Shown here one piece after another: positions 2,793 to 10,964 of a stretch of 36,885 nt of DNA; position 1 is the first letter of the stretch; the number at the start of each line of letters is the position of its first letter. Source of the DNA: a virus; the IMG/VR virus record IMGVR_UViG_3300030107_004705, positions 1 through 36,885 of that record; one strand, given 5' to 3'. Position numbers and translations under genes: made by a program. The notes under the pieces are model-generated. The model did not search any database, had not been told where the DNA came from, and was given only the letters and a program-made list of their open reading frames with translations.

Positions 2793-2934
2793 GCTTTTTC
2801 TCCAATCTTACATCTTTAACAGTATTATATTCAATATTCAACCCTTGTGGTGTGGGACCACTTTTAGGGGGCACTGTGGTTGTTAGCTTTTTAGGCTTAA
2901 TATATTTACTCGGGTGTTTAAATGTAAATGTCAT
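2764..2934 (-). CDS. Small conserved hypothetical protein between TerL and portal (56 aa)
   Basis: This gene starts MTFTFKHPSKYIKPKK and contains a GLNIEYNTVKDVRLEKKHG segment before ending RQKFTK. Its ATG overlaps the TerL stop in a TAATG junction, and its last 29 bases overlap the start of the portal gene. It is Lys- and Pro-rich with no cysteine or membrane helix. I recall proteins with a similar GLNIEYN motif at this place in marine phage genomes. Function is unknown; a tiny basic protein between terminase and portal could help packaging or portal assembly, which is a guess. Confidence 0.8.
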   Translation of the reverse strand: MTFTFKHPSKYIKPKKLTTTVPPKSGPTPQGLNIEYNTVKDVRLEKKHGNRQKFTK

Positions 2935-4412
2935 TACCAATAATATTTAAAATTTTTTCTAGGTAAGGGCTCATCTTTATAGTCATCTGGGTGCATAATC
3001 AAGCCTCCATCTCTAAACCTCATCACCGCTTGTGTGGTGCTATCAACTAAATCATCATGATCCCCATACGGAAAAGCAGCGCATTCTTCTATAACCTCTT
3101 GAGCAAACTCTCTAGTTTTCGGTGCGTATATCTTGCCCGACTCAAAAAGGGGGGCTACGGAGTTTACTCTTGCATGTTTATCATTACCTCGGCTAGGGGT
3201 AAAATCTGCAACAGGTATACCCATACGACGTAACTCAAATATCAAAGGTAGTCCTGCAGCCTTTGCCTCAACTAAAACTGTTTCAGGTTTCCAATACATG
3301 TATTGATCGTATGCTATTCGTTTTAATTCAGGAAACTCATACCGCCCTTTGATTGCATCTATTAACATTAAACATTGTGGTGAGTCTTCATTCTCTCTAA
3401 ACACACCCCATGTTGTAATAGCAGAATAATCTGCAGTTTGTTTTTTAAGAAATGCGGTATCGTAAGATTGTATAACATGTTCTAGTATTGGCATCTCTTC
3501 GCTCTCCCAATCCATCCACCACTCTCGTTTGATTAAAGCCCCTTCGTCCGAGGTTGGGTTTTGCATATACTGTGCATTCCATTTATTTACTCCAGCAGAT
3601 GCTTTTACAGCTTCAAGGTCCTCGAGCTTCCAATATTGAGGCCACATAGGTTCACCACTTGGCATAATCGCAGGGAACTCTATTACCTCCCATTGATCTG
3701 CTTTTTCTTCTTTTTGTGAGTTTAGTAACATCTGCGTTAAATCTTTTTTACTCCATCTTGTCATGACAAGAATAATTCTACCGCCTGGTTGTAAACGTTG
3801 TCTGGGTCCTGAAGTATACCACTCGTATGTTTTTTCAAATGCGTTGGGTGAGTTTATGTCTTGCTCTGAGTGTGGATCATCGATGATAAGAAGATCAGCA
3901 CCTCTCCCGGTTACCGCACCTTGGACACCGACTGCAAAATACTCACCGCCCTTTGACGTGTTCCATCTTCCTGCAGCCTTTGAGTCTTCTTGTAATCTTG
4001 TTGTAAAAAGTTTTTGGTAAGGTTCACTATCGATTAAGTTTTTTGTTTTACGACCAAAGTTTACTGCTAGCTCTGCTGTGTGAGTTGCTTGAATTATTTT
4101 AAGATCTGGATAGTTACCTATCATCCATGCAGGTAAAAAGTAAGATGCAAACTCAGACTTTGTATGTCTTGGTGGCATATTAATAATTAACCTAGTCAAT
4201 TCACCACTAGCTATCTTATTAAATTTTTCTGATACTTCTTTGTGATGTTTACCTTCAATAAACTGTGGCCACATTCTTTTAACAAAGGTTAAAAAATCCT
4301 CTCTAGCAGCTGTAGCTTTTTGGTTTTCATAACCAGCTATTATGTTCTGTTTTAATCTTTCTCTTTCCTGAACATCAGGAATTTTATTGATCTGTTCTAA
4401 AGTTAGTTTCAT
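2934..4412 (-). CDS. terL: Terminase large subunit (TerL), DNA-packaging ATPase and nuclease (492 aa)
   Basis: TerL drives DNA into the procapsid and cuts the concatemer. The ATPase domain has a Walker A-like motif MPPRHTKSE at residues 79-87 and Walker B LLIIDDPH at 174-181. The nuclease domain shows the acidic residues expected of the RNase H-like fold: D318 in QSYDTAF, E382 in VEAKAAG, and D451-D457 in DHDDLVD. Length is typical. It is the first gene of the late minus-strand run and is coupled to the next gene by TAATG. There is no clear Shine-Dalgarno sequence before the ATG; a TTGCTT-18-TATAAA promoter candidate lies only about 20 bases upstream, so the leader would be very short. The small subunit is encoded more than 4 kb away on the other strand. 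Confidence 0.95.
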   Translation of the reverse strand: MKLTLEQINKIPDVQERERLKQNIIAGYENQKATAAREDFLTFVKRMWPQFIEGKHHKEVSEKFNKIASGELTRLIINMPPRHTKSEFASYFLPAWMIGNYPDLKIIQATHTAELAVNFGRKTKNLIDSEPYQKLFTTRLQEDSKAAGRWNTSKGGEYFAVGVQGAVTGRGADLLIIDDPHSEQDINSPNAFEKTYEWYTSGPRQRLQPGGRIILVMTRWSKKDLTQMLLNSQKEEKADQWEVIEFPAIMPSGEPMWPQYWKLEDLEAVKASAGVNKWNAQYMQNPTSDEGALIKREWWMDWESEEMPILEHVIQSYDTAFLKKQTADYSAITTWGVFRENEDSPQCLMLIDAIKGRYEFPELKRIAYDQYMYWKPETVLVEAKAAGLPLIFELRRMGIPVADFTPSRGNDKHARVNSVAPLFESGKIYAPKTREFAQEVIEECAAFPYGDHDDLVDSTTQAVMRFRDGGLIMHPDDYKDEPLPRKNFKYYW

Positions 4413-4429
4413 ATGGAACCAAAAAGTAT

Positions 4430-4459
4430 TTTATAGGATAAATTATTCAAATCAAGCAA
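4430..4459 (-). promoter_or_regulatory. Candidate sigma70 promoter for terL
   Basis: Read on the minus strand, TTGCTT at 4459-4454 is followed after 18 bases by TATAAA at 4435-4430. The predicted transcript would begin around 10 bases before the terL ATG, giving a nearly leaderless mRNA. The -35 match is imperfect, so confidence is modest. Confidence 0.4.
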
Positions 4460-4565
4460 TATAAGGGTATATGTTAGGATCCCTTTTGCACAAACGCGAA
4501 TCGACAAAAATAAAAAATCCAAAAAACCAAAACGGTCTGGTACCTCTATGAGGGGTGAGAGATCG

Positions 4566-4594
4566 GGGTGGGCCCCGCCCACATGCTCTTCTCT
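4566..4594 (+). repeat. GC-rich palindromic repeat, copy 1 (long form)
   Basis: Its core is GTGGGCCCCGCCCAC, a 6-bp stem with a CCC loop, followed by ATGCTCTTCTCT. The 29 bases are identical in copies 1, 2 and 3. The GC block stands out sharply in AT-rich sequence. Downstream, an ACATGTTGTGT stretch resembles the ACATCTTGTGT that follows copy 6, so homology runs past the core. Confidence 0.9.
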
Positions 4595-4673
4595 ACATGT
4601 TGTGTTTTATAATTTTGTTGACACAAGATCTAGTTATGCAGTTTTTGCATAGGATAATCTAGGAGGTGCGACA

Positions 4674-4685
4674 ATAGTATACTAT
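4674..4685. promoter_or_regulatory. 12-bp perfect palindrome, possible operator
   Basis: ATAGTATACTAT reads the same on both strands and lies about 50 bases upstream of the chosen ArdC start, inside the likely promoter area. A short perfect palindrome at this place is typical of a repressor dimer site. No cognate regulator is identified; the ribbon-helix-helix-like protein at 11449-11637 is one candidate in this genome. Confidence 0.35.
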
Positions 4686-4735
4686 ATTATCCTATAAAAT
4701 AATATAAGCTTATATTTATGAAAGGAAATAAAAAT

Positions 4736-5662
4736 ATGACTAAATCAAAAGAAACACTCAAGGCGTTTGTTGGTGAGGTTATCAATGAGATGATACACAA
4801 CAACGACAATTGGGTAAAAATGTTTGGTGATGAAAATTTATTACCGGCAACAAATGCAATAACAAAAAATAGATACAAAGGTATCAACTATTTTATGTTA
4901 GCTGCTACAACTAGAGACAAAGGCTATAAACAAAATGTTTGGGCTACTTATAAACAATGGGCAACAGTTGGCGCTCAAGTTACTAAGGGCTCAGAGTCTA
5001 CAACAATTATTTTTTATAAGCCGCCAATGTACAAAGACAAAAAAACTGGCAACATAATTACAGGTCGAGTTAATTATTCAGATCATGAAAAAGTAACGGG
5101 TCCAATAATGAGCGCGGCGAGCGTGTTCAATGTTGCTCAAGTTGATTTGTCTAATTCAAGTTACAAAGTAGAAGAGAAAACAAACACTCAATACTCTGTA
5201 GCTAACATTGACAAGTTCGTAAAAGATACCGGCGTTAAGATTATCTTTGAGGATGACACTAGATGTTATTATCAAGAGTCAGAAGATTTGATTAACATGA
5301 CACCAAAAGAAAAATTTCATGACACTAGCGACGCGGATGCGACTCAGCATTACTACGCGACTCTATTTCATGAATTAACTCACGCGACTAAACATAAGTC
5401 TAGATTAGATAGAAAAGCGCAGTTTGAGGACGACGCTCAAAAATCTTACGCTTATGAGGAATTAGTAGCTGAGTTGGGTTCAGTTCTACTGTCACAACAT
5501 TTTAATCAGACTAAGACAGTTAGAGAGAACCACGCTCAATACTTAAACAGTTGGATAAAAGCGTTACAAAAAGATTTTACTTTTTTGACTAGCGCCGCTC
5601 AAAAAGCATCAGCAGCTGTTGAGTATTATTTAAATCAACAATCAAAACAAAGGGCAGCGTAA
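4736..5662 (+). CDS. ArdC-type antirestriction protein with zincin metallopeptidase domain (308 aa)
   Basis: The N-terminal part (about residues 30-100) matches the ArdC ssDNA-binding domain family (ITKNRYKGINYFMLA, VWATYKQWATVGAQVTKG). The C-terminal part carries a HELTH zinc motif at residues 212-216 followed by KSRLDR and a downstream YEELVAELGS that can supply the third ligand. ArdC proteins are ssDNA-binding anti-restriction factors of plasmids and phages. An ATG 18 bases upstream (4718) gives six more residues, but that ATG overlaps the AAAGGA ribosome site placed 9 bases before 4736, so 4736 is preferred. The gene heads a two-gene plus-strand unit bounded by repeat copies 1 and 2. A 7-bp hairpin GGGCAGC-GTAA-GCTGCCC spans its stop codon. 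An early counter-defence role is inferred. Confidence 0.85.
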   Translation: MTKSKETLKAFVGEVINEMIHNNDNWVKMFGDENLLPATNAITKNRYKGINYFMLAATTRDKGYKQNVWATYKQWATVGAQVTKGSESTTIIFYKPPMYKDKKTGNIITGRVNYSDHEKVTGPIMSAASVFNVAQVDLSNSSYKVEEKTNTQYSVANIDKFVKDTGVKIIFEDDTRCYYQESEDLINMTPKEKFHDTSDADATQHYYATLFHELTHATKHKSRLDRKAQFEDDAQKSYAYEELVAELGSVLLSQHFNQTKTVRENHAQYLNSWIKALQKDFTFLTSAAQKASAAVEYYLNQQSKQRAA

Positions 5663-5669
5663 GCTGCCC
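5652..5669 (+). promoter_or_regulatory. Intercistronic mRNA hairpin at the ArdC stop codon
   Basis: GGGCAGC (5652-5658), loop GTAA, GCTGCCC (5663-5669). It contains the TAA stop and lies just before the GGAAGGGA ribosome site of the 73-aa gene. There is no T-tract, so it is more likely an mRNA stability or coupling element than a terminator. Confidence 0.5.
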
Positions 5670-5682
5670 GGAAGGGACGACA

Positions 5683-5904
5683 ATGGACAAAACAACGTTT
5701 GATAAAAAAATACATAGAGCAAAAGAAAGATTGCATCAAATGCACGATGTATCAAGACACCAAAAAGATATCGGGGATTTAATGGACATGACGTACATAG
5801 AAGAACGTTTGGTTTCATGGGCCTTGTTAAATATGTCTGATAAAGAATTTAAAAATCAGATTAGACAAGTTGAAGATAAAAATAAAACACTTTACAAATC
5901 TTAA
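5683..5904 (+). CDS. Small hypothetical protein co-transcribed with ArdC (73 aa)
   Basis: A charged, His- and Lys-rich, probably alpha-helical protein (MDKTTFDKKIHRAKERLHQMHDV at the N-terminus) without membrane segments or cysteines. It follows the ArdC gene by 20 bases, has a strong GGAAGGGA ribosome site, and is followed at once by a strong terminator, so the two genes form a closed bicistronic unit. I do not recognise the family. Pairing with an antirestriction gene suggests a partner or a second anti-defence protein, which is inference. Confidence 0.7.
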   Translation: MDKTTFDKKIHRAKERLHQMHDVSRHQKDIGDLMDMTYIEERLVSWALLNMSDKEFKNQIRQVEDKNKTLYKS

Positions 5905-5910
5905 ATAGGA

Positions 5911-5945
5911 ACACGGGCCACGAACAGTGGCCCGTGTTTTTTTAT
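5911..5945 (+). terminator. Rho-independent terminator of the ArdC unit
   Basis: A perfect 11-bp stem, ACACGGGCCAC (5911-5921) with GTGGCCCGTGT (5927-5937), a GAACA loop, and a run of seven or more T directly after. It closes the ArdC and 73-aa transcript seven bases after the stop codon. Confidence 0.93.
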
Positions 5946-5952
5946 TTTTTTT

Positions 5953-5976
5953 AAAAAAAGGGTGGGCCCCGCCCAC
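5953..5976 (-). terminator. Repeat copy 2 used as a minus-strand terminator
   Basis: On the minus strand the repeat forms GTGGGC-GGG-GCCCAC (5976-5962), followed by CC and seven T (5959-5953). It lies downstream of the minus-strand 78-aa gene that ends at 6030. The other repeat copies lack this T-run on the minus strand, so terminator activity is not the general property of the repeat. Confidence 0.55.
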
Positions 5977-5988
5977 ATGCTCTTCTCT
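5960..5988 (+). repeat. GC-rich palindromic repeat, copy 2 (long form)
   Basis: Identical to copies 1 and 3 over 29 bases. It lies straight after the T-tract of the ArdC-unit terminator and before the hairpin at 5993-6014. Confidence 0.9.
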
Positions 5989-5992
5989 GGCT

Positions 5993-6014
5993 GGTGTTGC
6001 CTTTCGGCAACACC
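5993..6014. terminator. Stem-loop downstream of the minus-strand 78-aa gene
   Basis: GGTGTTGCC (5993-6001), loop TTTC, GGCAACACC (6006-6014): a 9-bp perfect stem with a tight loop. On the plus strand a T6 run follows after six bases; on the minus strand the repeat-derived terminator follows. It probably belongs to the 3' end of the minus-strand gene. Confidence 0.55.
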
Positions 6015-6029
6015 ATTGCTTTTTTACAA

Positions 6030-6266
6030 CTATGCAGATTTCTCTACATCGACAAAGGACTTGTAAAAAACTTGTTGAATTTTATATTGAGTATGTTTCC
6101 AAGAAAATCTCGGAGACATTCGCTCAATCGTGTCCTTTGCATCGATGTATTTTTTAGCATTTACCATAAGATCAAAACTTTCAACAACGTCAATTTCTGT
6201 TTTGCCATTGTCTTTATCTTCACCAATTCTCAATACTAAAAAAGTAGAGTGTGTATTTTCCATCAT
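6030..6266 (-). CDS. Small hypothetical protein (78 aa)
   Basis: Starts MMENTHSTFLVLRIGEDKD. An in-frame ATG six codons upstream (6284) overlaps the AAAGGAGG ribosome site, which is 7 bases before the ATG at 6266, so the shorter form is chosen. A TTGACA-17-TATATT promoter lies just upstream (6291-6319). The protein is soluble and mixed alpha/beta in appearance, with no recognised family. It is the only minus-strand gene in the accessory zone and diverges from the 57-aa gene across a shared promoter region. Confidence 0.7.
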   Translation of the reverse strand: MMENTHSTFLVLRIGEDKDNGKTEIDVVESFDLMVNAKKYIDAKDTIERMSPRFSWKHTQYKIQQVFYKSFVDVEKSA

Positions 6267-6285
6267 AATTATTCCTCCTTTCATA

Positions 6286-6319
6286 TTGACAATATAGGAT
6301 TTCCTGGTAATAATGTCAA
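6286..6319. promoter_or_regulatory. Overlapping divergent sigma70 promoters
   Basis: Minus strand: TTGACA (6319-6314), 17 bases, TATATT (6296-6291). Plus strand: TTGACA (6286-6291), 16 bases, TAATAA (6308-6313). Each -35 box lies beside the other promoter's -10, so the two hexamers form an inverted repeat TTGACA-22-TGTCAA, and use of one should block the other. They serve the 78-aa gene (minus) and the 57-aa gene (plus). Confidence 0.75.
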
Positions 6320-6337
6320 GTAGAAAGGATAAAACAA

Positions 6338-6511
6338 ATGAAAGTAAAAGATTTAATTAAAAGATTAAAATGCCAAAATCAAGAAAAGGATGTTGTTTTT
6401 TGGCACGAAGATTTAGATGAAAACTATTGGGGATGTGAGATTAACGAAGAATGGTGTAACGATACCGATGTCGTTATTTACCCTACACTATATGAAGAAA
6501 ACAATAGTTGA
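6338..6511 (+). CDS. Small acidic hypothetical protein (57 aa)
   Basis: Starts MKVKDLIKRLKCQNQEKDVVFW and is rich in Trp, Asp and Glu. The ATG follows AAAGGA by 8 bases. Its first ten residues (MKVKDLIKRL) closely match those of the next gene (MKINNLIKKL), pointing to a shared N-terminal element or duplication. The family is unknown to me. Acidic, DNA-mimic-like small proteins are common anti-host factors, so its composition in this zone is suggestive but not proof. Confidence 0.7.
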   Translation: MKVKDLIKRLKCQNQEKDVVFWHEDLDENYWGCEINEEWCNDTDVVIYPTLYEENNS

Positions 6512-6560
6512 TTAAGTTAATAATAGGAGTATAAAGGATAATATGAAAGGACGAAATAAT

Positions 6561-6737
6561 ATGAAAATAAATAACTTAATAAAAAAACTAAATGAAGAGA
6601 ATGCTCCTCCAGATGGTTGGAAGGACGAAGATAAAGTGCAGCTTGAATGCCGTGCCAAGAAATGTAGCAGCACTCTCAAACCTGATTGGACATCGAAGCT
6701 TGATCCAAGATATTGTTTAGATTGTATGCCGTGGTAG
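6561..6737 (+). CDS. Small Cys-containing hypothetical protein (58 aa)
   Basis: Starts MKINNLIKKLNEENAPP. An upstream in-frame ATG at 6543 would add six residues, but the AAAGGA site placed 9 bases before 6561 and the match to the neighbour's N-terminus favour 6561. The C-terminal half has four cysteines (LECRAKKCSS and RYCLDCMPW), which could bind one zinc ion. It follows the 57-aa gene by 49 bases on the same strand and is followed by a terminator, so the two form a unit. Confidence 0.65.
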   Translation: MKINNLIKKLNEENAPPDGWKDEDKVQLECRAKKCSSTLKPDWTSKLDPRYCLDCMPW

Positions 6738-6746
6738 ATATTAGTA

Positions 6747-6778
6747 AGCGCTGATCCTAGATCAGCGCTTATTTTTTT
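6747..6778 (+). terminator. Rho-independent terminator after the 58-aa gene
   Basis: A perfect 10-bp stem AGCGCTGATC (6747-6756), loop CTA, GATCAGCGCT (6760-6769), then TA and seven T. Repeat copy 3 begins two bases after the T-run. Confidence 0.92.
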
Positions 6779-6779
6779 A

Positions 6780-6808
6780 GGGTGGGCCCCGCCCACATGC
6801 TCTTCTCT
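6780..6808 (+). repeat. GC-rich palindromic repeat, copy 3 (long form)
   Basis: Identical to copies 1 and 2 over 29 bases; again it directly follows a terminator and precedes the leader of the next plus-strand gene. Confidence 0.9.
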
Positions 6809-6887
6809 CGGTGCGTCAGTATGTCCTATTTTATCCTATAAAGAATAATGTAGGATAATCCTATAACTAATAACAAAAGGAGTAGTT

Positions 6888-7472
6888 ATGAAACCAATAA
6901 GAAGCAACGAACTTGAATTCTTTAAAGAGTTAATTAAAGACAAGTTCAACGACAAGGAAGAAGCAGTTAAATCAGAAATCCACATGGAAGCTGATAAGCT
7001 GTCTCAAAAAAACAAAGCGTCATTCCCTAAGGCGTGTGGCGTGGATAAGGAGTTGAAGGTACTTAAAAAAGCAAATGATGAGTATTTAAACTTCAGAAGG
7101 TCTAAATCAACCGTGGAAGCAAAACTATTGCAGAAGGTTAGTGATATTGCAGAAGGTATTAGCAGTAAACTAGGTAGATTAGGCAAGACTAGACAATGGT
7201 ATGAGAGCTTTGATAACTTCAGCCCTAAGGAAGATGGGCCTGAATATTTTACTAATAAGCTCGATGATTTATGCTTTCAGGAAGCAGAAAAGCATATCAA
7301 GAAGGGCCATAAGATATATAATGCTCTTCGAGAGAAGCGAGATAATTGTAAAGTTATCATTCATACTGGTAGTGACATTAACAGTACAGTTAAGACGCTA
7401 CAAAAAGAAATGGCAACCGCAGATATACGACTTGCCATTCCTAACAACTTACTTCAATTAGCTTCAAACTAA
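6888..7472 (+). CDS. Hypothetical accessory protein (194 aa)
   Basis: A highly charged, largely helical protein with likely coiled-coil segments in residues 1-100 (ELEFFKELIKDKFNDKEEAV and later stretches). No catalytic motif, membrane helix or signal peptide is apparent. The ATG follows AAAAGGAG by 7 bases. The gene stands alone between repeat copies 3 and 4, with an AT-rich leader containing several TATCCTATA or TAGGATAA words and its own terminator downstream. I do not recognise the family. Its cassette-like setting suggests a transferable accessory function. Confidence 0.75.
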   Translation: MKPIRSNELEFFKELIKDKFNDKEEAVKSEIHMEADKLSQKNKASFPKACGVDKELKVLKKANDEYLNFRRSKSTVEAKLLQKVSDIAEGISSKLGRLGKTRQWYESFDNFSPKEDGPEYFTNKLDDLCFQEAEKHIKKGHKIYNALREKRDNCKVIIHTGSDINSTVKTLQKEMATADIRLAIPNNLLQLASN

Positions 7473-7478
7473 ACGACC

Positions 7479-7512
7479 AATGGCCCTCGCAAGAGGGCCA
7501 TTCTTTTTTTGT
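7479..7512 (+). terminator. Rho-independent terminator after the 194-aa gene
   Basis: A perfect 10-bp stem AATGGCCCTC (7479-7488), loop GCAA, GAGGGCCATT (7493-7502), then C and seven T. It ends the single-gene unit just before the repeat array. Confidence 0.93.
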
Positions 7513-7526
7513 TTTTTATTTTTTTT

Positions 7527-7628
7527 GGTGGGCCCCGCCCACAAGCACAACTCACAAGCAACAGGGAGGGCCCCGCCCACAAGCACAACCCACAGGCAGC
7601 AGGCATAGGGAGGGTCCCGCCCACATGC
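7527..7628 (+). repeat. Short array of the GC-rich repeat (copies 4, 5 and 6)
   Basis: Three units begin at 7527, 7564 and 7608. Each carries the GGGCCCCGCCCACAAGC-type core (copy 6 has GGGTCCCGCCCACATGC) followed by a related tail (ACAAGCACAACTCACAAGCA; AAGCACAACCCACAGGCAGC). Spacing is 37 then 44 bases. Copies 5 and 6 have GGGAGGG where copies 1-4 have GGTGGG, which weakens the hairpin stem. The units vary and there is no constant-repeat, unique-spacer pattern, so this is not a CRISPR array. Confidence 0.85.
7601..7628 (+). repeat. Left 28-nt direct repeat flanking the GC-rich RNA-like segment
   Basis: The 28 bases starting AGGCATAGGGAGGGTCCCGC recur at 8073-8100 with two differences (T/C and T/A). 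Together they bracket about 440 bp containing the structured RNA candidate. This copy includes repeat copy 6. Confidence 0.85.
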
Positions 7629-7696
7629 ACGCCACACTACATCTTGTGTCAATCACTTTTTAGTTGAAAGTTTTTTTATTTTTTTTAATTTTTTAT

Positions 7697-7725
7697 TTGA
7701 CAGAACCTTGGATCTAGGATATTGT
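7697..7725 (+). promoter_or_regulatory. Sigma70 promoter for the structured RNA candidate
   Basis: TTGACA (7697-7702), 17 bases, TATTGT (7720-7725). A perfect -35 and ideal spacing; the -10 is four of six. The start point would be around 7732. No ORF with a ribosome site follows, which supports a non-coding transcript. Confidence 0.65.
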
Positions 7726-7731
7726 AGGACT

Positions 7732-8030
7732 GTATTGTTAAGTTAATCCACGGACACCTCTGGCAAACACTGACCTCGTTTGGAGCTTTTCCGGTCGATA
7801 AATTTGTCAAAGCTCCAGGGTACCTGGATCGAGAGTGGTCGCACCACTCCTGATCCCTGGTCCAGCAGCTACGTGCCGGATAAGCTCCCGCGGGGCAACT
7901 GCTGGACCTGGGATCAGAATACTGATCGAGCAAAGCGCTCAGGCATGGAACCTGCAGTTAGTTCAACAGATAAAATGTCGGGGAATGGTTGGAACCCGAG
8001 GCTGCAGGCTAAGCCCTATTTTAAATTTTC
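7732..8030 (+). ncRNA. Candidate structured non-coding RNA, about 300 nt, family not recognised
   Basis: The segment is much richer in G+C than its surroundings, has no credible ORF with a ribosome site, and is full of compensating helices. They are: 7781-7789 with 7809-7817 (9 bp); GAGTGGT-CGC-ACCACTC at 7833-7849; a 19-position helix 7850-7868 with 7899-7917 (18 pairs, one U-U); an inner hairpin GCTCC-CGC-GGGGC at 7884-7896; CCTGCAG 7951-7957 with CTGCAGG 8002-8008, enclosing TCGGG 7978-7982 with CCCGA 7995-7999. A sigma70 promoter lies just upstream. The 3' end is uncertain: GGC-TAA-GCC at 8007-8015 followed by a T-rich run is a weak terminator. I found no tRNA, tmRNA, RNase P, hammerhead or group I intron core signature. 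Position between direct repeats suggests a mobile or cassette-borne RNA. Confidence 0.6.
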
Positions 8031-8399
8031 AAGGAACAAGCAACATGCGGAAAGGCCACAAGCCACAGGCGTAGGCATAGGGAGGGCCCCGCCCACAAGC
8101 GCGTGCACCGCGGTCCCTTCATAAAGTTTTATGCCAGAAGGCTCAAGGGCCTTTGGCAGGTATTTTACCATGATGAAACTGTTCTTTGGATGCCTAATAT
8201 GGAACGATATTTGATGTGGTGATAGCCTCGGAAACTTACTCAAACTTACTTTTAATTCAACAGTAAAAAATTTATTATATTTGTTGTATCCCAACAGATC
8301 TGGCGTACCATGAGCAGCAGAATTCTCAAGCCTAGTCCAGCTTATTTTACATTTATAGTCTTTGATTTGCTTCCAAAATTTAGACTCATTCTTAGGCAT
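8016..8399 (-). CDS. Putative PD-(D/E)XK nuclease with a repeat-derived C-terminus (127 aa)
   Basis: The first 95 residues look like a small VRR-NUC or Holliday-junction-resolvase-type nuclease: E25 in WTRLENSAAHGTPDLLG, D34, E48 and K50 in FTVELKV, and Q63 in PHQISFH. Such enzymes cut branched or flapped DNA during replication and packaging. Residues about 101-107 are encoded by repeat copy 7 (LVGGALP) and the rest by the 3' edge of the RNA-like segment, giving a low-complexity, Cys- and Pro-rich tail unlike a nuclease fold. The repeat seems to have replaced the original stop codon. Start ATG 8397-8399, with no strong ribosome site. The nuclease call is moderate. Confidence 0.65.
   Translation of the reverse strand: MPKNESKFWKQIKDYKCKISWTRLENSAAHGTPDLLGYNKYNKFFTVELKVSLSKFPRLSPHQISFHIRHPKNSFIMVKYLPKALEPSGIKLYEGTAVHALVGGALPMPTPVACGLSACCLFLENLK
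8073..8100 (+). repeat. Right 28-nt direct repeat, including repeat copy 7
   Basis: Matches 7601-7628 at 26 of 28 positions. It contains repeat copy 7 (8080-8100, GGGAGGGCCCCGCCCACAAG core) and lies inside the 3' end of the minus-strand nuclease gene. Confidence 0.85.
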
Positions 8400-8436
8400 T
8401 TTTTAAAGTAATTTTCAGAGTAAGTGTGGTTTAAAA

Positions 8437-8664
8437 TTAGTCACCAATCTTCTTCAAAACTTTACCCATATTCCAGGATTCAGCCTTGACCGTAAACACC
8501 AATCTATGACTCTCACGGTGACCTATGATTTTATTTTCTAGCAACTGTAAAGAAGTTACATCATAAAATTTACCGTCGGGTAAGCATACCTGCACCCTTG
8601 CATTTTGGGCGGAGGGAGATACCATCATCTTATCTAATACTTGACTTAATAACTTTCCATTCAT
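8437..8664 (-). CDS. Conserved small hypothetical protein (75 aa)
   Basis: Begins MNGKLLSQVLDKMMVSPSA. A TTG four codons upstream could extend it to 79 aa, but the ATG at 8664 is preferred. The body (VQVCLPDGKFYDVTSLQLL, ENKIIGHRESHRLVF) suggests a compact alpha/beta fold; I recall similar proteins in uncultured marine phages. A TTGAAA-16-TATATT promoter lies 11 to 38 bases upstream, so the leader would be very short. It diverges from terS. Confidence 0.7.
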   Translation of the reverse strand: MNGKLLSQVLDKMMVSPSAQNARVQVCLPDGKFYDVTSLQLLENKIIGHRESHRLVFTVKAESWNMGKVLKKIGD

Positions 8665-8674
8665 TCTTACTTGC

Positions 8675-8702
8675 AATATATCCTATATTTTATATATTTC
8701 AA
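8675..8702 (-). promoter_or_regulatory. Sigma70 promoter for the 75-aa gene
   Basis: On the minus strand TTGAAA (8702-8697) is followed after 16 bases by TATATT (8680-8675), with the recurrent ATAGGA word inside the spacer just before the -10. Confidence 0.6.
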
Positions 8703-8704
8703 CC

Positions 8705-9223
8705 ATGGGAGTACCAAAAAGATTAACAGAAAAACAATTAAAGTTTGCCAATCTAATTATAGCTAACGAAGGTAGAAAGACAGCGACTGAGTGTGCAGTC
8801 TTAGCTGGTTATGATGAAGAGTCTGCTTATGTTAGAGCTTCAGAACTGCAAAATCCAAAGAAGTATCCGCTTGTTGTAGAGTATATAGGTAAAAGAAGAT
8901 CAGAGTTATTAAAGAAATACGACATAAGTTTTGATGGACATATGGTAGAGTTAGGTAAACTTAGAGATGAGTTTAGGGAAAACAAAGCCTGGACCGCAGC
9001 AGGTAATATGGAAGTTTCACGTGGAAAAGCTGCTGGATATTACAACAACCAACAAATACATTTACATAAACACGAAGGCTTATCGCAAGAAGAAATAGAT
9101 GCAAAGGTTGTTGAAGCTTTGAAACACTATCAACCTATCATAGACAAAGATGCAGAGGTAGTTACAGACGAGTTATCTTCTTTACCCAAGCCCGAGGAAT
9201 CATCGTCCGATCACCAAAAGTAA
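8705..9223 (+). CDS. terS: Terminase small subunit-like protein (TerS, 172 aa)
   Basis: TerS recognises phage DNA for packaging and hands it to TerL. The N-terminal 60 residues have the helix-turn-helix-like pattern of the Terminase_2 family: LTEKQLKFANLI, then TATECAVLAGYDEESAYVRA and LQNPKKYPLVVEYI. A central helical oligomerisation part and an acidic Ser- and Glu-rich tail follow. Length is normal. It lies over 4 kb from terL on the opposite strand, close to the early promoters. No good ribosome site precedes the ATG. Its last 62 bases overlap the 3' end of the convergent 95-aa gene. Confidence 0.8.
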   Translation: MGVPKRLTEKQLKFANLIIANEGRKTATECAVLAGYDEESAYVRASELQNPKKYPLVVEYIGKRRSELLKKYDISFDGHMVELGKLRDEFRENKAWTAAGNMEVSRGKAAGYYNNQQIHLHKHEGLSQEEIDAKVVEALKHYQPIIDKDAEVVTDELSSLPKPEESSSDHQK

Positions 9224-9707: not shown

Positions 9708-10439
9708 CTATACAGACTTTTCGGTGTGGTATTGCCCAACTTTGGTCAACCATTTGTACATATATTGCCTAAATTCCTCATCAGATACCTCAAATTTTTG
9801 AAAGTACCCATCTTTGCTGCACATTAGAATCACTCCAGACTGTATCTTGGTTTGATATATATGGTTGTGAGCCATAGCATAGGCAGCCAATTGAACAAAG
9901 TAATCTTCTACCCACTCCCTACGTTTAGGCTTGTTTGTTTGCTTAAAGTCTATTATGCTTTCGCGTCCATTGTAAACACCCACTACATCTGTCTGTCCTG
10001 CATATAAATCTGGATACCATACTGTGACCTCAGACCCCCATATTTCGTCCAGAGAGCCCTTTATACCATCATCAATCACCTTTTGGGCCATAGAGGTAGC
10101 CTCTTGCCCTATATCCGTTAAATCAGCGTGGTTTTGGCCCAGCAAATAGCGTTCTAAAAGGGTATGCATGGCTGTTCCACGGGCAGCTGCTTGGTCCATG
10201 GTCCTTTGTGCTTCTGCCTCACCTACTTTAGCACGCCAATTGGCCAATGAATCTTGCTTCTCTTTTGATTGAGTTTGTGATATTATAGTTGTTACAGATG
10301 GTAACTTTTGATTATCTACTGCGTAGTGTCTTTGACCCATGACTAATTCTCTTTGACTCTTTGGGTAAGAGAATTGTTTATTCCATTTAAGAGTCCAGGT
10401 ATTTTTATTATATTCTTCTATATCTTTATCTTCCATCAT
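9708..10439 (-). CDS. RecB-like PD-(D/E)XK exonuclease (243 aa)
   Basis: The catalytic set of the RecB or Cas4-like nuclease superfamily can be read in order: E137 in GSEVTVWYPD, D151 in LYAGQTDVVG, D164 and K166 in IIDFKQTNK, and the QxxxY motif QLAAY at 183-187. An N-terminal region (LPSVTTIIS, ARGTAMHTLLERYL) matches the helical part with the family's conserved GTxxH. The enzyme probably degrades or resects DNA in phage recombination or supplies nucleotides from host DNA. It overlaps the 37-aa membrane protein gene by 14 bases and is the last gene of a minus-strand operon. Confidence 0.85.
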   Translation of the reverse strand: MMEDKDIEEYNKNTWTLKWNKQFSYPKSQRELVMGQRHYAVDNQKLPSVTTIISQTQSKEKQDSLANWRAKVGEAEAQRTMDQAAARGTAMHTLLERYLLGQNHADLTDIGQEATSMAQKVIDDGIKGSLDEIWGSEVTVWYPDLYAGQTDVVGVYNGRESIIDFKQTNKPKRREWVEDYFVQLAAYAMAHNHIYQTKIQSGVILMCSKDGYFQKFEVSDEEFRQYMYKWLTKVGQYHTEKSV

Positions 10440-10539
10440 CTTTCATTACCTCATTAATTATATACCAAGCAATTATACCACCAATGATAATAGCAAACAT
10501 ACCAAGTATAAACATACCTAGTCCATGAAACAATGTCAT
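10426..10539 (-). CDS. Very small membrane protein (37 aa)
   Basis: The ORF begins MTLFHGLGMFILGMF and continues through AIIIGGIIAWYII to end VMKDDGR, so most of it is one transmembrane helix. Its ATG overlaps the stop of the LAGLIDADG gene in an ATGA junction and its end overlaps the exonuclease start by 14 bases. Tight overlaps on both sides argue for a real, translated gene. Its function is unknown. Confidence 0.65.
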   Translation of the reverse strand: MTLFHGLGMFILGMFAIIIGGIIAWYIINEVMKDDGR

Positions 10540-10964
10540 TTCATCCTCTGTCGTTTAATTTTATAATTAGCTATATTAATTACTTTAGCTTTTATTTTTT
10601 CTGTTCCTAATTCAGAATAGTGTTTAATTATTTTATTCATCTGTTCTAATTTTACATGAGCATAAGGTTGTAATAATAAACAAACATAATACGCATCTCT
10701 TAACTGACATCTCCAACGCCATTGCTTCTTCCAACCAACTGTATAAGCTGTTTTATATTTCTTCTCAGTAACAGTTCCAACGCCCAATAGATCATGTATC
10801 AATAACAATACAGACTTATCGGTCATCGCTACTTCCATTCTAACCGACCATGTAGGGTAGGGCTTTTTATTATGTGGGCGTTTACGCATGTATTGTTTGT
10901 ATTGAATATGGCCTTCACCATCAAAGAGTCCTGCTATGTATGCAGCGTTGACATCACTTATCAT
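10536..10964 (-). CDS. Freestanding LAGLIDADG-type homing endonuclease (142 aa)
   Basis: The N-terminus has the signature AAYIAGLFDGEGHI (residues 8-21), followed by an arrangement with a basic middle and an LLLQPYAHVKLEQ segment near the end typical of single-motif LAGLIDADG proteins, which work as dimers. Homing endonucleases cut a specific site and spread by repair copying. No intron or intein is seen around it. It is embedded in the operon with an 11-base overlap upstream and an ATGA overlap downstream, so its expression depends on the neighbours. The family call is good; the target site is unknown. Confidence 0.8.
   Translation of the reverse strand: MISDVNAAYIAGLFDGEGHIQYKQYMRKRPHNKKPYPTWSVRMEVAMTDKSVLLLIHDLLGVGTVTEKKYKTAYTVGWKKQWRWRCQLRDAYYVCLLLQPYAHVKLEQMNKIIKHYSELGTEKIKAKVINIANYKIKRQRMK

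Follow-up and report, generated by a model that had tools for sequence, protein, structure and literature searches.

A GC-rich repeat of constant orientation bounds exchangeable gene cassettes between the terminase genes of marine pelagiphages

Integron arrays, built on attI and attC sites, are rows of small units in the same orientation, each of which ends in a recombination site and is gained or lost singly, and lambdoid morons are accessory insertions between core genes, each equipped with a promoter and a terminator. Promoter early stem-loops (PeSLs) of T4-type phages (Arbiol 2010, Comeau 2014) are described, in papers that cite the original work, as intergenic composite promoter-terminator motifs associated with module shuffling (PMC4503421, PMC3950731), and the boundary (linker) sequences of the modular theory reportedly cannot be recognised at most mosaic boundaries (PMC3029335). 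Here we describe a gene array that resembles each of these in part, located in the IMG/VR virus record IMGVR_UViG_3300030107_004705 (positions 1 to 36,885, analysed as a whole and called the window). Comparison with related contigs leads us to favour, with some reservation, the view that it consists of accessory transcription units lying between the genes for the large (TerL) and small (TerS) terminase subunits and exchanged by homology at GC-rich repeats of one orientation, and that these repeats have a sequence-specific role in addition.

The core of the repeat, GGGCCCCGCCCAC, is found on the plus strand at 4570, 5964, 6784, 7530, 7568 and 8084, with a one-mismatch form, GGGTCCCGCCCAC, at 7612; shuffled sequences gave a mean of 0.05 and a maximum of 1 copy, compared with the seven observed. 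No copy lies outside the array or on the minus strand anywhere in the 36.9-kb window. The first three copies have 29 nt in common (GGGTGGGCCCCGCCCACATGCTCTTCTCT, at 4566, 5960 and 6780), and the flank and tail of copies 4-7 deviate from them (TGGTGGG..., GGGAGGG...). A preliminary description of the locus had reported seven GC-rich cores, 29 identical bases in the first three and nothing similar elsewhere in the window, and it was right on each point: the cores are real and on one strand, its coordinates being offset by some three bases because it counted part of the flank. The repeats are:

4566-4594, plus strand: repeat 1, GGGTGGGCCCCGCCCACATGCTCTTCTCT; forms the array's left edge, some 150 bp away from the start of terL
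5960-5988, plus strand: repeat 2, GGGTGGGCCCCGCCCACATGCTCTTCTCT
6780-6808, plus strand: repeat 3, GGGTGGGCCCCGCCCACATGCTCTTCTCT; an extra 570-, 825- or 984-bp cassette lies exactly here in relatives
7526-7554, plus strand: repeat 4, TGGTGGGCCCCGCCCACAAGC...; opens a close triplet
7564-7592, plus strand: repeat 5, GGGAGGGCCCCGCCCACAAGC...
7608-7636, plus strand: repeat 6, GGGAGGGTCCCGCCCACATGC...; core with one mismatch
8080-8108, plus strand: repeat 7, GGGAGGGCCCCGCCCACAAGC...; right edge of the array, within the 3' end of an open reading frame (ORF) at 8016-8399 (minus strand)

The ORF that contains copy 7 (8080) encodes 127 amino acids (aa) and belongs to the fixed right flank.

Gene content changes at the edges of these repeats. 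In relatives whose TerL is 98-100% identical to that of the window, three different extra cassettes are present exactly at repeat 3: loci L025, L092 and L015 carry an added cassette of 825, 984 and 570 bp, respectively, plus one repeat, and both edges around the insertions are kept ('...agcgcttattttttta' before, 'cggtgcgtcag...' after). In contexts that share their left side, identity is 0.93-0.97 as far as the repeat and falls to 0.34-0.28 beyond it (45 independent contexts, 216 distinct swaps). Those that share their right side are 0.93 identical after the repeat and 0.26-0.5 identical before it (56 independent contexts, 182 distinct swaps); random identity is 0.26-0.36, and the higher values before the repeat in right-shared contexts reflect common T-tracts. 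The alignment of relatives proposed earlier as a check thus places the change in content exactly at the repeat edges on both sides, and the repeats of a sister class (class B, below) show an identical kind of step, with 33 left and 33 right swaps. At repeats, 1216 of 1509 resolved comparisons (81%) were one-sided breaks and 293 were conserved, with 373 further comparisons intermediate, whereas at control words inside cassettes breaks made up just 195 of 2618 (7%), with 2423 conserved and 1904 further intermediate. Cassettes are also found in new positions: a 469-bp unit occupies slot 3 of L065 and slot 2 of L075 with 96.4% identity from end to end, and a 402-bp unit is 82% identical end to end between phages whose terL-side flanks are 74% identical. 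Breaks inside cassettes do occur at times, for example within RNA-bearing units.

Because content breaks at repeat edges and rarely at control points, we read the repeat as the cassette boundary; the comparison shows whole units gained, lost, replaced and moved exactly there. The suggestion that the repeats serve as exchange points for modules between phages therefore gains support from the edge steps, the insertions at repeat 3, the relocated cassette, the control and class B alike, and we hold it to be very probable that exchange happens at the repeats. All of the loci come from metagenomic contigs, and a shared stretch of 29 nt is a classical place for assemblers to join unrelated phages by mistake, in which case the swaps would be chimeras. 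However, 103 junction types recur in at least two independent metagenomes, and alternative partners, each present in at least two metagenomes, exist for 10 left and 15 right contexts; this recurrence makes chimeric assembly unlikely. Moreover, the relocated cassette is 96% identical and so not an exact copy, the array keeps the same TerL-TerS layout throughout, and no relative with sufficient sequence lacks the repeats, such that an assembly artefact seems extremely improbable.

The repeat is widespread among relatives of the window. An exact search with 27 nt matched 96 viral contigs, and among the fetched marine viral contigs the window's form, class A, accounts for 1049 copies in 256 loci (some of which derive from one and the same contig), with copies on both strands in one locus only; the reversed pattern, used as a control, gave 0 matches. 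Two further contig scans each gave at least 120 matches. In eight of nine larger related records the repeat is present only as a single cluster of 5-8 copies, and relatives with TerL at least 71% identical all carry it when at least 333 bp beyond terL are present. The preliminary description had named relatives with the same genes in the same order but lacking the repeats, or repeats scattered without relation to gene content, as findings that would speak against exchange; what we observe is that sufficiently covered relatives have the repeat and that copies are confined to the array. The search of phage and host genomes that it proposed found the class A copies in relatives and none in prokaryotes (0 of 84,980 genomes), so by this genome test the class A repeat is not a host element. 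No significant match was found in cultured phages.

Relatives near 67% TerL identity carry instead the class B element, GGGWGGGTGGGCCCNNAGNNCACAAGC (384 copies in 125 loci), which has the same place and orientation as class A (L105, L163-L167 and at least 120 contigs) and is never found together with it in one locus. A third form, GGGTGGGGGTAGGNCACGGGC...CCCCACCC, is again similarly placed and oriented but known from a single locus, L162. By eye, GGGTGGG, 7-9 bases and then CAC[A/G]-[A/T/G]-GC are common to all three. One locus, L257, has class A repeats though its TerL is just 61% identical to that of the window, a combination that suggests transfer of TerL or of the array between lineages.

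The array lies between TerL (minus strand) and TerS (plus strand) in every class A or B locus that holds both genes. This constant flanking, the constant orientation and the shift of repeat class with lineage, as seen also for TerS (50-100% identical to that of the window in class A, 34-57% in class B), would suit repeats that are TerS recognition or packaging sites, with cassettes accumulated between pac-like sites and recombination proceeding from ends made there. However, the class change also tracks general divergence and so is not specific evidence; the copies extend over several kb with intervening genes, unlike pac sites as generally described; and Pelagibacter phages HTVC027P and HTVC023P keep the gene layout without these repeats. 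We regard packaging sites as a distinctly unlikely explanation.

The core is kept with unusual strictness. Among copies with orthologous sequence on both sides, the flanks being 86% identical, identity is 99.96% over 17 core positions and just 80% at position 8; the core of each copy is thus held by strong purifying selection. The tail of the repeat (positions 19-29) goes mainly with the downstream cassette. Homogenisation within genomes by gene conversion was considered and rejected as the cause of this constancy, since at most variable positions two repeats from the same genome resemble each other no better than two from different genomes. In class A the core can form a hairpin of 5-6 bp (DNA folding z of -2.55), whereas class B has no stable hairpin (z of 0.23), and hence a hairpin is not a common property of the boundary repeats. 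No consistent T-tract follows the repeat hairpin in either direction, and a terminator on the minus strand was rejected accordingly. The case for a function at the RNA level is weakened because the repeat keeps one direction whichever strand the genes occupy, because position 8 varies freely though it is opposite the invariant G12 in the stem, and because the 4/16 pair is often broken in GGGAGGG copies. As conservation of the core goes far beyond what homology would require, some phage factor may read it sequence-specifically, and we put the existence of such an additional reader at about even chances.

A rival explanation is a dedicated site-specific system, in which an enzyme of an unrecognised family, from phage or host, would cut or join DNA at the repeat and move cassettes in the manner of integrons or Y1/REP elements. 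The constant orientation, the invariant core with its internal 5-6 bp stem, the lineage specificity of the site and the clean insertions and deletions of single repeats are what such a site-specific system would produce. Yet tyrosine recombinases (PF00589), serine recombinases (PF00239) and Y1 transposases (PF01797) are absent from 12 related records, near-complete genomes included, no integrase was found among the scanned window proteins, and class B repeats bound cassettes equally well without a stable hairpin; we consider this system unlikely.

Since no recombinase or transposase was found, we favour homologous or annealing exchange at the repeats, and think it on balance probable that the mechanism is driven by homology rather than being site-specific. 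Related phages would infect one cell, where their arrays would recombine at the repeats, which could act as short islands of guaranteed identity amid otherwise unrelated sequence. The exchange itself would proceed by homologous recombination or by strand annealing, with enzymes supplied by the phage or the host. One candidate is the phage's own PD-(D/E)XK exonuclease (9708-10439); PolA, helicases and a primase are also encoded in the window. A phage factor, whether the terminase, a regulator or another protein, might read the core. Several points weigh against this account. The evidence is entirely comparative and comes from metagenomic assemblies, with no direct sighting of recombination; the core is conserved more strictly than a pure homology island requires; and linkage data do not fix the exchange point within it. 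Slots are partly conserved, with some families toward the TerL side and GP88 or RNA cassettes toward the TerS side. Finally, no annealase (RecT, Erf, Rad52) was recognised among the scanned window proteins, these families not having been searched across the full records. It is conceivable, though on the unlikely side, that the repeats belong to a dedicated phage exchange system in which a trans-acting factor, perhaps the terminase, reads lineage-specific sites resembling GGGTGGG-N7-9-CACAWGC, integron-like but without an integrase, among co-infecting pelagiphages.

In the window, the repeats delimit four cassettes:

4566-5959: cassette 1, 1394 bp; leader containing a promoter-like TTGACA, ArdC gene (4718-5662), 73-aa ORF (5683-5904), terminator (5907-5941)
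5960-6779: cassette 2, 820 bp; ORFs of 84 aa (6030-6284, minus strand), 57 aa (6338-6511, plus strand) and 64 aa (6543-6737, plus strand), terminator (6743-6773)
6780-7525: cassette 3, 746 bp; 194-aa ORF (6888-7472, plus strand), terminator (7479-7502); cluster 9
7608-8079, plus strand: cassette 4, 472 bp; GC-rich and non-coding, with a probable structured RNA; present in 3 loci as cluster 25

Cassettes 1 and 2 correspond to cassette clusters 7 (10 loci, some cut by contig ends) and 6 (19 loci). Genomes have 3-9 repeat copies; intervals of at least 300 bp have a median of 865 bp (5-95%: 429-1402), and doublets less than 120 nt apart make up 198 of 792 intervals, mostly toward the TerS side. 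In L091 (1109-1172), tandem repeats 6 nt apart (cgaaaa) resemble the scar of a deletion or a cassette without content. Three different inserted cassettes, in L025 (~4532), L092 (~5607) and L012 (~8285), have at their end a C-rich run (e.g. CCCCCCTCCCCCC) that leads straight into GGGTGGG.

Terminator-like hairpins with T-tracts end just upstream of copies 2, 3 and 4 in the window, in the order terminator, repeat that the preliminary description had noted. This order does not extend to a general rule: strict terminators precede just 25 of 461 repeats in relatives (5%, compared with 3 of 709 control windows), and the terminator was rejected as a general defining part of the system. T-tracts are nevertheless enriched immediately before repeats, as are promoter-like boxes immediately after them, which gives many cassettes the appearance of independent transcription units. 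Two motifs, promoter-like TATAGGATAT and TGCGACA, are enriched within 100 nt downstream; the latter lies about 30 nt or less downstream of ~20% of repeats of both classes (controls, 0-0.6%), and at 4667 in the window, and is possibly an operator of cassette promoters. The enrichment of the two motifs could mean that the repeat is itself a shared operator or activator site upstream of cassette promoters, with exchange a by-product, and in HTVC027P two genes of the equivalent region, gp33 and gp34, form their own temporal expression cluster (PMC12753301). Such regulatory repeats are difficult to reconcile with a direction that stays constant while cassette genes occupy either strand, or with close doublets and near-empty intervals of 31-46 nt that have no promoter, and strike us as decidedly improbable.

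Among the cargo, counter-defence is identifiable in ArdC alone, from its profile matches (ArdcN, 1.3e-22; MPTase-PolyVal, 6.8e-34; PHROG anti-restriction, 4.8e-63). The proposal that the array carries small counter-defence modules thus has support for this gene but not for the acidic ORFs, which have no known relatives, or to the 194-aa protein, which has none of known function. Profile and PHROG scans yielded no named family for the ORFs of cassette 2. Other cassettes encode GP88 (PF17338) and a DUF2786/DUF7168 protein; the remaining cargo, small acidic ORFs and the 194-aa protein included, had no named relatives in family scans. The 194-aa protein is predicted to be all-helical (pLDDT 90), and its model had no informative match in the PDB or a viral structure library; a weak PADLOC match (PDC-S06, 2.6e-4) probably reflects helical composition. 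Its relatives occur in many arrays and also in cultured HTVC023P, and thus the gene seems to occupy a slot that is often filled and not to be an occasional extra. In many phages the homologue is a 198-aa gene on the minus strand of cassette 2, whereas that of the window is on the plus strand of cassette 3.

The last cassette probably encodes a new structured RNA with its own promoter:

7697-7725, plus strand: sigma-70-like promoter of the non-coding cassette, TTGACA-17-TATTGT
7727-8060, plus strand: probable structured RNA, with the clamp hairpin GATCCC-T-GGTC...GACC-T-GGGATC from 7852 and a conserved 3' domain that extends to 8015

The clamp encloses a stem that varies freely in sequence but keeps its pairing. 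Over 71 distinct hairpins, drawn from 85 class A and class B loci, the inner stem has a mean of 5.4 bp compared with 1.3 when partners are swapped; G-U pairs are common. A near-identical hairpin is present in the window (class A) and in L346 (class B), with a compensatory change from C-G to T-A, and further clamp RNA sites are found in L004 (4359-4528), L015 (11457-11641) and L346. No Rfam family reached the gathering threshold in the window or in 15 loci, and RNA-family matches below threshold in the array were taken as chance.

The array is framed by conserved genes:

2934-4412, minus strand: TerL, fixed left flank; Terminase_6C (1.4e-09), 67.5% identical to HTVC027P TerL
8437-9223: fixed right flank, cluster 5; 79-aa ORF (8437-8676, minus strand) and TerS (8705-9223, plus strand; PHROG terminase small subunit, 1.1e-09)

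The TerL of the window is 67.5% identical to that of HTVC027P, 65% to that of 023Pt_psg01 and 58% to that of HTVC023P, and all four share the layout terS, variable genes, terL. From the homologous TerL and this layout, the carrier is assigned to the HTVC023P-type pelagiphages, which infect SAR11. A related 56.5-kb record, G003, holds the whole arrangement, cut within the array, from which we infer that the window represents about two thirds of such a phage. In a paper on the HTVC023P group (PMC9599517), the words cassette, palindrome and intergenic are absent and the three uses of 'repeat' concern other things. HTVC027P (L104) has runs of AAGC-type heptamers near gene boundaries of its terS-terL region (5011-5147, 5901-5958, 6231-6258), and CACAAGC units in the repeat cluster of the window (7540-7606) resemble them. 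The window also encodes a LAGLIDADG homing endonuclease (10536-10964) between replication genes.

How does this array relate to described systems? The PeSL modules come closest. As with PeSLs, whole modules shuffle among related lytic phages at repeated intergenic elements, the motif lying between modules of a hyperplastic region whose gene content changes there. Unlike PeSLs, the repeat is neither promoter nor terminator, the promoter-like boxes being downstream and variable; it has an invariant core and forms a single terL-terS array in one orientation regardless of gene strand, and its carrier is, by TerL and layout, an HTVC023P-type podovirus of SAR11 rather than a T4-type myovirus. The array superficially shares with integrons a same-orientation row of small units gained and lost one by one, but no integrase was found (PF00589, 12 records), the site is nearly invariant, and each cassette comes with promoters of its own and in some cases with more than one gene, on either strand. 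The absence of PF01797 from the same records distinguishes it from REP/Y1 (RAYT) and IS200/IS605-like elements. Like morons, the cassettes are accessory units with their own promoter and terminator between core genes; morons, however, are single insertions without a common boundary repeat.

The repeats also act like boundary (linker) sequences, as short shared stretches between modules that permit homologous recombination. Whereas those of the modular theory are said mostly to escape recognition, here a single repeat is present 3-9 times in each genome, and exchanges can be traced by the hundred. The array offers a clear example from nature of a long-standing proposal that can seldom be tested, namely that conserved boundary sequences are where phage mosaicism originates. 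The repeat is a tag that allows genomes to be divided into exchangeable units and exchange rates to be gauged from sequence alone. With its help one can also catalogue a set of small genes, for the most part unnamed and probably directed at the host, in phages whose hosts are the most abundant bacteria of the ocean. It also raises the concrete question of what reads the core so strictly. Taken together, the system is a form of boundary-mediated module shuffling that departs from PeSLs in one defining feature and from integrons in another.

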